A DNA stretch of 37,725 bases from an uncultured Lachnospiraceae bacterium (GTDB taxonomy: Bacteria; Bacillota; Clostridia; Lachnospirales; Lachnospiraceae), in the NCBI GenBank assembly GCA_902794825.1, contig CADBIU010000033.1, positions 1-37,725 on the forward strand. Direction: 5' to 3'. Positions 21,128 to 23,579 of this stretch are shown here, piece after piece (position 1 is the first letter of the stretch; each line of letters starts with the position of its first letter). The notes under the pieces are model-generated. The model was not told the origin of the DNA, made no database searches, and was given only the letters and a program-made list of their open reading frames with translations. Position numbers and translations under genes: made by a program.

Positions 21128-21769
21128 TCAGTGAAGTTTAGAATAGCCGAAACTGTTGCAGATCGCGTCGATCGGAATGTGGTCCTTGCACATCTTGCAA
21201 TCCGACGCATTGTAACTTCTGTAATCCGGAAGATCCTGAATCTTGTACAGCGAGTGGACCTGCTGTCCGAAGATCTTGGTCGGAACGGAGAAGATCGCCG
21301 TGATGCCCACAACGGTTCCGCCGTAATAGTCGATGCTCTCGCCTGCGCGGAGGATCGTCTGTCCCGTGGTCGCGGAAGCCAGAAGCAGAAGGACGTGCTT
21401 GCCCTTGATCATCATCTCTGAATTCTCGCGGAAGATCATCTGGCCGCGGTTATCGAACTCGGGAGAATATACATAGATCGTCTTATGCGCGTTCATGGAC
21501 ATAATACCCGCCTGAGTAAGCTCATCGGCAAGGTAAGCACCGATTACCTCCATCCCGTCCATACACACGATCGTATCGACGATCGTCGTGGCGGCATAGG
21601 TGCTGGCCATAGCGCGTGCGGCTGCCTTAGCTTCACTCTGCCTGGTCTTCATTGTCGTCATATCGATATAGTAATTGATATGGGAGTTCGGCGTTACAAA
21701 ATGTCCGGGGATAACTTTCATAATGACGTCCGGGAATTTTCTCGATCTCATCTTTGTGTAAGACTGCAT
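21128..21769 (-). CDS. Phosphoribosyltransferase-fold protein with altered PRPP loop
   Basis: 213 residues with the type I phosphoribosyltransferase layout, closest by eye to orotate phosphoribosyltransferase. The PRPP-binding stretch (residues 126-139) reads VLLLLASATTGQT: the TTG turn is kept but the two acidic residues normally before it (DD or ED) are replaced by Leu-Ala. A CxxC pair (SDCKMCKDHIP) lies near the C-terminus. The change makes ordinary transferase activity doubtful; it may be a regulator or a specialised enzyme, as in PurR-type paralogs. GGAGG five bases before the ATG at 21769 decides the start. It is monocistronic, with a -10 at 21841 and its own terminator. Confidence 0.72.
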   Translation of the reverse strand: MQSYTKMRSRKFPDVIMKVIPGHFVTPNSHINYYIDMTTMKTRQSEAKAAARAMASTYAATTIVDTIVCMDGMEVIGAYLADELTQAGIMSMNAHKTIYVYSPEFDNRGQMIFRENSEMMIKGKHVLLLLASATTGQTILRAGESIDYYGGTVVGITAIFSVPTKIFGQQVHSLYKIQDLPDYRSYNASDCKMCKDHIPIDAICNSFGYSKLH

Positions 21770-21840
21770 ATGCACCTCCGTTCTGCGGCTCACGCCCCTG
21801 CAGCGAAGCCGTATTGACTATTCCTGTAACTTATAGAGTC

Positions 21841-21951: not shown

Positions 21952-21980
21952 TTTTCATTCTTTCTAAATAGTTTTATAAC
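21952..21980 (+). promoter_or_regulatory. Candidate promoter of a small RNA
   Basis: TTTTCA (21952-21957), a 17-bp spacer and TATAAC (21975-21980). A second possible -10, TATAGT, lies at 21991-21996. No protein gene follows on this strand. Confidence 0.4.
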
Positions 21981-21986
21981 AACTAT

Positions 21987-22139
21987 CGTGTATAGTATTA
22001 CTTGTAAACAGAGAGAACATTTCCCCCTCTTTAAAACTCTCAATGTTTAACAAGATTTACATTTCCCCCTTTCAGATAAGCCCTTCGCAATGATCGCGGA
22101 ACACTCCGCAGTCGTTGCGAGGGGCTTATTCCTTTTGGT
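21987..22139 (+). ncRNA. Candidate C-rich regulatory small RNA
   Basis: About 150 bases lie between a plausible promoter and a strong terminator hairpin, with no ORF. The sequence carries two copies of ACATTTCCCCCT (22018 and 22059), 41 bp apart in otherwise unpaired stretches. The reverse complement, AGGGGGAAATGT, looks like a ribosome binding site followed by ATG, so each copy could pair with translation start sites. Firmicute small RNAs such as RsaE/RoxS act through similar UCCCC motifs; the resemblance is in motif only. Transcription is not proven. Confidence 0.4.
22076..22136 (+). terminator. Strong 24-pair hairpin, probable terminator
   Basis: ATAAGCCC/GGGCTTAT (22076-22083 with 22122-22129), TCGCAA/TTGCGA (22085-22090 with 22115-22120) and GCGGA/TCCGC (22096-22100 with 22105-22109) stack with wobble pairs and one mismatch around an ACAC loop. 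A moderate T-rich tail (TCCTTTT) follows. Confidence 0.7.
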
Positions 22140-22182
22140 AGCGGGATCATTTTCGGGCCGGAATGGTTTGTTTTAGCAAACT

Positions 22183-22560
22183 CTCCATCCTCTTACGGCA
22201 TTGGCTGAATCCGATGGGCTGATATTTAGCTTCCTGGCACAAACTCTCCATCCACTTTCGGCATCGACTGAATCCGATGGACTGGAAAAGCTTGTTCTGG
22301 CACAAACTCTACATCTCTTTTGGGCATCTGCCGCATCCGATGGAGACTTCATGTACAAGTGCTCTAATAGGTTACATCCAATAAAGAAAATAGCCGTATC
22401 CGATGGGGACTTCAGGCAGGAGCGTCCAAATCGGCTACATCCAAAAAATGGAATAGTCGTATCCGATGGGGACTTCAGGCAGAAGCGCTCAATTTGGCTA
22501 CATCCAAAAAAGAAAAAAGTCGTATCCGATGGAGCCGCCAGGCATAAACAGCAGAAACAA
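22183..22560. repeat. Six-unit tandem array with an exact 63-bp period
   Basis: The 9-mer ATCCGATGG occurs at 22209, 22272, 22335, 22398, 22461 and 22524, each exactly 63 bp apart. A second block, C(T/C)(C/A)CATC(C/T), lies exactly 26 bp upstream of each (22183 to 22498). There are no insertions or deletions over 378 bp. Units 4-6 resemble each other most, as do units 1-2. Both strands stay open: the minus strand could encode a 137-residue protein of 21-residue repeats (SPSD plus a GC or GW motif, 22173-22586). Differences between units 4 and 5 fall mainly at first and second codon positions in both frames, so a conserved protein is not supported. 63 bp equals six helical turns. Confidence 0.85.
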
Positions 22561-22634
22561 AAAAGGGGCAATTGCCGCACGGACACAAGTTTTCACAACC
22601 ACCTTGCATCCGGAGCAGCACGCCCCTCACAAAT

Positions 22635-23411
22635 TCAGTCTTCAATTTCCATCGCAACCGGCTCTTCCAACGTAAGCTTCCCGCCCACAGTGCCAGCATA
22701 TCTTCCCTGCCGTTTGGCCATGTTGACAGTGATCGTTCCGCCCGGCTGCTCGAAATTGTAGCTGTGGAAGCCATCCTTCTCATCTCTGGTCAGATACCAG
22801 GCCGCTGCCAGCGACCCGCTGCCGCAGGATGATTCACAGCACACCGTATCTGTCTCCGCGACATAGACGACCGGGATCAGGCTGTCGCCGTTAACAAACA
22901 TTACGCCGAAGGCACTGAAGCCTTTTCCAAACTTGTCGATCATTCGACGGGCAAAAGCCTCGTCAAACTCTCTGTCCACACAGATCATATGGGTTATACC
23001 GCGAGAGATCACGAGGGGATAGAGTCCCTCAGCTTCCTCGCCTGCCATCTCCAGTTTCTCGGGCATAGGCATCTGGGCTGCGCTGGTCTCCCTCTCGAAG
23101 TCGCAAATGACTTCAAGCTGCTCGCGCGTGCCGGACATTTCTATTTTGCAATGGTCGATCTCTTTCTCCCTGCACAGAAGGTAACCGTAGGAGCGCGCCG
23201 CATTCCCGCAGAATTCACCGCCTGCCATTTCGAGCCTTCCGAGGCTCTTTCCGTAGAGGGGGCGCGTTTCAAAGCCGACTTGCTCAGCACTGAGCGCCGG
23301 GTCCGCCATGATCGCGGCCGCAACTCTCGCCCGCTCTGACTTGGGAACACCGCTGCGGACAATCGCTGTCCTGTTGCCGGCCGGATCTGCCATTACCACT
23401 GTAAACTTCAT
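22635..23411 (-). CDS. DapF-fold amino-acid racemase, closest by eye to histidine racemase CntK
   Basis: 258 residues of the diaminopimelate epimerase fold, a cofactor-independent racemase using two cysteines: Cys68 in MAGGEFCGNAARS and Cys196 in CCESSCGSGS. The motifs PAGN (10-13), GGEFCGN, SCGSG and EQPGGTITV match my memory of the staphylococcal histidine racemase CntK better than ordinary DapF (MCGNGARC and ACGTGA). CntK makes D-histidine for the metallophore staphylopine; no CntL or CntM homolog lies here. The start at 23411 is set by GGAGA five bases upstream. It follows the amino-acid ABC transporter genes on the same strand after a 168-bp repeat-filled gap, so the racemase may act on the transported amino acid. 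The exact substrate is unknown. Confidence 0.75.
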   Translation of the reverse strand: MKFTVVMADPAGNRTAIVRSGVPKSERARVAAAIMADPALSAEQVGFETRPLYGKSLGRLEMAGGEFCGNAARSYGYLLCREKEIDHCKIEMSGTREQLEVICDFERETSAAQMPMPEKLEMAGEEAEGLYPLVISRGITHMICVDREFDEAFARRMIDKFGKGFSAFGVMFVNGDSLIPVVYVAETDTVCCESSCGSGSLAAAWYLTRDEKDGFHSYNFEQPGGTITVNMAKRQGRYAGTVGGKLTLEEPVAMEIED

Positions 23412-23445
23412 TGCTGTCTCCATTCTTCTGTTAATTCTTTGCGGC

Positions 23446-23579
23446 GGCTCTTCCGTCCAACATTGCCGCGGCAAGGCTCTTCCGTCCAACATTACCACAG
23501 CAAGGCTCTGCCGCCCAACACTGACGCGGCAAGGCTCAGCCGCCAATCATAACCGCGGCATGTTCTGCCGCCAATCACT
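23446..23579. repeat. Degenerate 29-bp tandem repeats between racemase and transporter genes
   Basis: Units starting near 23446, 23475, 23504, 23533 and 23562 share GGCTCTTCCGTCCAACATT-like and GCCGCGGCAA-like halves. The second half is nearly palindromic (TTGCCGCGGCAA). The period is not a multiple of three, so this is not a conserved coding repeat. Confidence 0.8.

Follow-up and report, generated by a model that had tools for sequence, protein, structure and literature searches.

The analysed stretch of 37,725 nucleotides, here called the window, carries a tandem array in the gap between two ORFs of the minus strand. ORFs were called greedily, the longest first, and the features of the locus are as follows.

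21128..21793, minus strand: left neighbour, an ORF of 221 amino acids without a Pfam match at 1e-5
22076..22136, plus strand: terminator-like hairpin with a T-rich run, left of the array and reading towards it (hairpin by eye)
22183..22560, plus strand (the unit strand being taken as plus): the whole array, six units of 63 bp
22183..22217, plus strand: core of unit 1, CTCCATC..ATCCGATGG, 35 bp, the further cores lying at steps of +63
22209..22217, plus strand: copy 1 of ATCCGATGG
22218..22308, plus strand: A-type half, the spacers of units 1 and 2 ending in CTGGCACAAACT, with core 2 in between
22344..22560, plus strand: B-type half, the spacers following cores 3-6
22559..22628, minus strand: terminator-like hairpin behind the right-hand gene, reading towards the array (by eye)
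22635..23546, minus strand: right neighbour, an ORF of 303 amino acids without a Pfam match at 1e-5

The right neighbour may be DapF-like, to judge by sequence motifs only. The left hairpin and its T-rich run are common to the genomes G012, G480 and G465 and to G032, which lacks the array at this site, and G032 has a different, shorter hairpin at the site of the right-hand one. The stretch 21980-22136, with a promoter-like part (by eye), two TTTCCCCC motifs and the terminator-like hairpin, looks like a small RNA gene as judged from its sequence; it gave no Rfam match, and its TTTCCCCC block is near-identical across the ten genomes compared, though the hairpin there differs. Elsewhere in the window the upstream end of the right-hand ORF has a 29-bp tandem repeat of 4.5 copies (23446-23574), and there are also a perfect 49-bp tandem duplication (507-608) and a 291-bp repeat within an ORF of 2476 amino acids (1951-2721).

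The initial annotation had described six copies of an invariant 9-mer at exact 63-bp steps, accompanied by a second block at a fixed offset of 26 bp, and both observations were borne out. The six copies of ATCCGATGG are all on the plus strand and start at 22209, 22272, 22335, 22398, 22461 and 22524, while 100 shuffles gave a mean of 0.48 and a maximum of 3 over both strands; among the 9-mers of the plus strand of the window it is the only one with six in-phase copies at periods of 20-200. The second block, [CT]T[AC]CATC, keeps its offset in 6/6 units, and 16 of the 63 columns are invariant. Tandem Repeats Finder reported two rows of period 63 (22177-22344 and 22335-22532), since the units fall into two classes, 1-2 and 4-6, and unit 3 stands between the two. 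Accordingly, unit 1 agrees with unit 2 at 48/63 positions and unit 4 with unit 5 at 52/63, and the identity of units 1-2 to units 3-6 is only 25-32/63. By the classification rule the spacers after cores 4 and 5 are of the B type and the one after core 3 is unclassified; the stretch following core 6 is the array end and was left out of the classification.

The window array is not alone in its genome. In the 2.7-Mb source assembly of 127 contigs the pair pattern was found at 10 places, spread over 4 contigs, and a looser pattern allowing up to 2 mismatches at 60, some of them plainly chance. A profile search found units in 16/16 further stretches of the same genome, the profile having been built from the window and other own-genome units, so that part of the units found were its seeds. 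The unit consensus is T[AC]CATCCa, then about 19-20 variable bases, then aaATCCGATGG, followed by a spacer of mostly 28-29 bases, which ends in ..GCTTGtcTGGCACAAAc in the A type and in ..CAGAAACGCcCAAAT in the B type. Each unit holds two short facing half-sites, T[AC]CATC and GATGG.

With a sequence-only profile made from 54 units and strict filters (R1), scoring up to 85 candidate places in each genome, at least 50 matches were obtained in G000, at least 72 in G032, at least 85 in G465, at least 89 in G480 and at least 96 in G012; G464 gave 2, also on closer inspection. Under the same filters 56 of the 62 genomes of the genus had no match listed. Closer inspection gave none in G473 and G006, and marginal rows with E values of 0.02-0.08 in G023 and G035. 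Exact pairs were seen in 3/61 genomes of the relatives search, all of the own genus, and among 398 genomes drawn from the phylum the exact pattern was found in the own genome only. In the named collection, which may leave out own-genome records, 43 stretches were found, all of them in RUG13037, RUG12657, UBA6998 and SRR873608_bin.40; these four are metagenome-assembled genomes titled uncultured Lachnospiraceae or Lachnospiraceae bacterium, and the RUG names we take to denote rumen genomes. Judged by the identity of one protein to that of the window, the five array-bearing species stand at 90-95% and the other genomes at 87% or less. Viral contigs contained 0 stretches with the exact pattern and BLAST of the array gave no match in plasmids or phages, and an origin from a virus or plasmid was therefore rejected. 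The literature titles for ATCCGATGG were unrelated among the matches listed, and keyword searches returned nothing or papers on REP and BIME. The arrays lie outside long ORFs and are present in high copy, the genomes of the five species having 50-96 unit matches as a lower bound. The array of the window is a single member of a dispersed family of non-coding intergenic repeats whose range is restricted to one lineage, a few uncultured species of Lachnospiraceae. The dispersal over the genome, the A-to-B polarity and the gain and loss of whole arrays go beyond what the initial annotation had noticed.

The phasing proved less rigid in the family than in the window. Among 268 distinct intervals (those with spacers of 20-34 bases) 159 measured 63 bp, 59 measured 64, 37 measured 62, and 13 measured 59-61 or 65; steps of 31, 52, 54, 72, 74 and about 126 bp are also present, outside the 268 counted. 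Strict 63-bp phasing is therefore not supported, because 109 of the 268 intervals differ from 63, though 255 fall at 62-64 bp.

The question of coding was raised by the fact that 63 is divisible by three and by the open reading of both strands, which was confirmed as one open frame on each strand of the window array. An open frame was found in 8/48 arrays (8/47 without one that was entered twice); shuffles, which take no account of the repetition, would give 0.4. The divisibility does not extend to the family, where 160/268 intervals are multiples of three and 108 are not. In each of the three orthologous arrays every one of the six frames is interrupted by stops inside the array (minimum 2, 3 and 1), and frame-breaking indels separate them from the window array. 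Substitutions per phase at the window site were 33/125, 37/125 and 30/125 against G480 and 13/88, 15/89 and 15/89 against G465; those against G012 were uneven (37/117, 36/118 and 22/119), but in an alignment full of gaps. It had also been claimed that the changes between units 4 and 5 fall mostly at first and second codon positions, which is weak because there are only 11 differences, split 2, 5 and 4 by phase. With no kept frame and no clear phase bias a coding tandem repeat is excluded, and the proposal that the arrays encode a 21-residue repeat peptide, contradicted by the stops and indels, is left with practically no chance. The preference of the initial annotation for a signal at the DNA or RNA level is supported by the same ortholog stops and frame-breaking indels, and by core bases that change about six times less than the others.

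This last figure was obtained from nine aligned array pairs (ten were tried, one of which had no aligned array), six of them orthologous and three within the own genome, the window being used three times. The core bases CATC and GATGG agree at 384/398 aligned positions (96.5%) and the non-core bases at 2,053/2,593 (79.2%), in a comparison where the cores themselves help the alignments and the pairs are not independent. Conversion within arrays could account for part of this conservation. A kept core within a drifting remainder points to recognition by a factor.

The order of the two spacer classes is likewise preserved. Both classes occur in 37 arrays, of which 34 are strictly A then B (the exceptions being L086, L119 and L123), a count that in 2,000 permutations never exceeded 17; here the spacers were classed by two short motifs and the unclassified ones were dropped. 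When the doubles on the other strand (11/69 entries) were removed, the count was 35/38, and it was 23/25, with a permutation maximum of 12, once arrays that are 85% or more alike across 150 bp had been merged. The B half was also considered as an inverted A half and this was rejected: the profile score of 7.71 was reached by 20/500 column shuffles, and a control that was reversed without being complemented scored 7.72.

Comparison of orthologous sites indicates that whole arrays come and go. At the site of the window array 14 genome loci were compared. Those of G000, G012, G480 and G465 carry units and the other 10 do not; one of these 10 has a gap containing Ns, and another, L137, gave only a partial alignment. 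In G032 the colinear flanks are joined with about 40 bp between them and no array. The exact ends of the array were not fixed, because the adjoining hairpins differ between the empty and the occupied sites, and no target-site duplication was fixed either. Near-copies are found at other places: L174 of G464 and L051 of the own genome share 237 bp at 89% identity with flanks that do not match. L050 and L051, both of the own genome, are 88.7% identical over 274 bp only; L050 stops at a contig end, therefore just one of its flanks is able to differ. A G012 contig has the array and pieces of the flank in common with the G464 copy at 97-98%, and the G464 copy may consequently derive from a longer transferred stretch or from a binning error.

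The number of units differs between orthologs. The rate of change looks uneven in the rows obtained from 12 of 14 comparisons of arrays with their flanks. Four array loci are 98.8-100% identical between G012 and G032 while one flank of each is 89.0-95.7% identical, and L051 and L118 are 99.3% identical with flanks at 86-93%. The window array, in turn, is 75-77% identical to two orthologs whose flanks are at 91-99%; L048 and L052 likewise show lower identity than the flanks beside them, and L056 is about equal. From these sequence comparisons some arrays look recently exchanged and others look to be changing fast. In the pairs L083/L088, L098/L111, L107/L106 and L067/L086 the array and one flank are near-identical between species and the other flank is 4-11% different; exchange tracts may have their boundaries at the arrays.

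In a first count 45/49 arrays were placed at gene 3' ends, with 4/49 in divergent gaps as against 28/124, but three arrays had been counted on both strands and orthologs were kept. The recount gave 42/46 places, and 24/28 dissimilar arrays as against 41/52 other gaps (7 convergent, 17 parallel and 4 divergent, compared with 9, 32 and 11); since this weakens the first count, no preference for gene 3' ends is claimed. Of 30 neighbouring ORFs 20 were scanned, and 15 of these matched assorted families (two are SNF symporters) and 5 matched none. A mobiliser of the RAYT type was rejected: the five species have 24 Y1_Tnp matches, and no unit was detected at E<=1 in the 12 stretches, some cut by contig ends, that hold 13 of them. 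No reader protein or mobiliser was found in this analysis.

Other repeats lie close to some of the arrays. Before the A half of a few of them stands a well conserved, folded repeat of about 300 bp, element X (z -3.55), with loci at L049:996-1302, L043:2070-2373, L224, L225, L226, L227, L228 and L229. When 56 array entries were tested, X or its last 64 bp was present on the A side, at a distance of up to 450 bp, in L043, L051 and L118, and not in the window array; L049 also has X, with too few units for the list of 56. Since X also occurs at loci where such arrays are missing, it is placed outside the array family. A 282-bp query of X gave 8 matches in G000, 2 in G012, 2 in G465, 1 in G032 and 0 in G480, as well as 74% matches in G011 and G015 and a 41-bp match in G473; X adjoins the gene of an HTH_38 protein in G011 and that of an ISL3 transposase in G473. 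Ten loci holding X or arrays gave nothing at the Rfam gathering level, and one X locus gave weak Rfam rows only (E 0.13 and above). In L229:800-1480 and in L228, X is followed by another array of hairpin units of about 62 bp (by eye) and by a tail that seems to near-repeat, in inverted form, the end of the neighbouring ORF ahead of a terminator (by eye). Some arrays (e.g. L048, L093, L117, L122) have beside them a hairpin module, GGGGC..GCCCC, of about 60-100 bp; it is also present at L174:1354-1460, L201, L202 and L203, and it starts a different multicopy stretch at contig ends. Another dispersed repeat, about 50 bp long, was seen at L174:750-870; dozens of matches to it came from several genomes of the genus.

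A repeated RNA bait was among the candidates of the initial annotation, and the folding data give it little support. The 48 array entries, one array being entered on both strands, fold somewhat better than dinucleotide shuffles (family mean z -1.95 and -2.21), and the G012 ortholog taken with its flanking hairpin reaches -2.81 and -2.54. Long-range pairing is slightly above the shuffles (+0.10 and +0.06), and a few arrays adjoin the strongly folded element X. The window array itself, however, has z-scores of only -1.32 and -1.17, and shuffling of the inner bases has a small effect only (mean z -0.26 to -0.57). The candidate CATC/GATG stem has no covariation, its bases being invariant or changed without compensation (column pair 1/34 is C-G in 68 units and A-G in 50). 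A foldback of A on B spacers was rejected, since in 38 arrays the spacers of one array had no advantage in pairing over spacers from different arrays (mean rank 0.55). Neither the window nor the array region gave an Rfam match, and the window array is flanked by two terminator-like hairpins, both oriented towards it (by eye). Taken together, action of the arrays as RNA, be it as a hairpin series at mRNA ends or as an array RNA, is improbable.

The explanation that we prefer, at a probability of roughly 0.55, is that these dispersed, polar, non-coding arrays spread by relocation and unit duplication while their cores are held by recognition in trans. Each copy would be a polar array of A-type and then B-type units of 62-64 bp; the copies would multiply by relocation of whole arrays and could also grow by local duplication of units. 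Recognition by a trans-acting protein, either DNA-binding or mobilising, would be what keeps the cores, and the arrays would constitute a non-autonomous intergenic repeat working like a BIME or REP cluster. Both the reading protein and the route of spread are what we infer in this scheme.

Two other readings have to be set against it. The arrays might be a functionless satellite, spread once by mobile DNA and now decaying, in which the core is kept only by unequal crossing-over and conversion; the widely diverged spacers, the varying unit number of orthologs and the array pieces lying at contig ends, as repeats do (C24, C94, C95), agree with this. A satellite does not readily explain why the core bases hold between orthologs as their neighbours drift, and the polarity would be hard to keep under free turnover of units, so we regard it as unlikely, if still worth weighing. 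Alternatively, the arrays could be maintained by a host function in which a nucleoid or regulatory protein docks on them as phased platforms, with facing half-sites about three helical turns apart, units of about six turns and a direction given by the A and B halves. The concentration of intervals at 62-64 bp, the kept cores and the polarity in dissimilar arrays speak for such platforms. The 41% of intervals that are not 63 bp, together with steps of 52-54 and 72-74, speak against them, as do the scanned neighbours without common function, the 56 of 62 congeners without a match, the site empty in G032 and a placement behind gene ends that was not clear after the recount; a host platform is accordingly held to be unlikely. 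A combined form, in which a mobiliser would have seeded tens of intergenic sites with polar, helically spaced half-sites read by one protein as directional DNA platforms, appears rather doubtful. If it were true, the chromosome could, for example, be organised or insulated between transcription units.

The five close array-bearing species and the 56 congeners without matches provide a densely sampled case in which to study the origin, spread and fixation of clustered intergenic repeats beyond the REP/RAYT systems. The contrast of core and spacer and the A-to-B order offer quantitative handles for finding the reading factor.

Among known systems the arrays resemble the BIME and REP clusters of enterobacteria, pseudomonads and Xanthomonas in being high-copy, extragenic short repeats of regular clustered spacing with facing half-sites, and in clusters that vary between related genomes. 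They differ in having no palindrome preserved by compensatory changes, in their 62-64 bp units with cores of 4-9 bases and A-to-B polarity, in their occurrence in Lachnospiraceae, and in the missing RAYT neighbour at the 13 of 24 Y1_Tnp matches examined. Nunvar et al. (PMC2817692) reported that RAYT homologs were at that time absent outside gammaproteobacteria. The CATC and GATG half-sites alternate at fixed distances and each has 4-6 bases, which does not make a REP; of a head like the GTAG/GTGG of REP, the reverse strand has GATG[TG]A, with the next G in part of the units only (by eye). Since a compensated palindrome and an association with RAYT were tested and did not appear, the arrays were not filed as REP. 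With REPINs and MITEs they have in common presence or absence at orthologous sites and, as far as seen, a non-autonomous nature; unlike these, the copies are arrays of many units, with no terminal inverted repeats or target duplications shown. CRISPR arrays have a similarly regular spacing of a short invariant motif with variable sequence between. Here, in contrast, the invariant block is 9 bp, the spacers form two homologous classes and the arrays are many and small; CRISPR was rejected, as near-identical repeats of 20-50 bp with unrelated spacers were not seen and 16/63 columns are invariant. Bacterial loci of the MIRU/VNTR type are likewise made of intergenic tandem units of about 60 bp in variable number, whereas the units described here are strongly diverged outside the core and are ordered, A then B.
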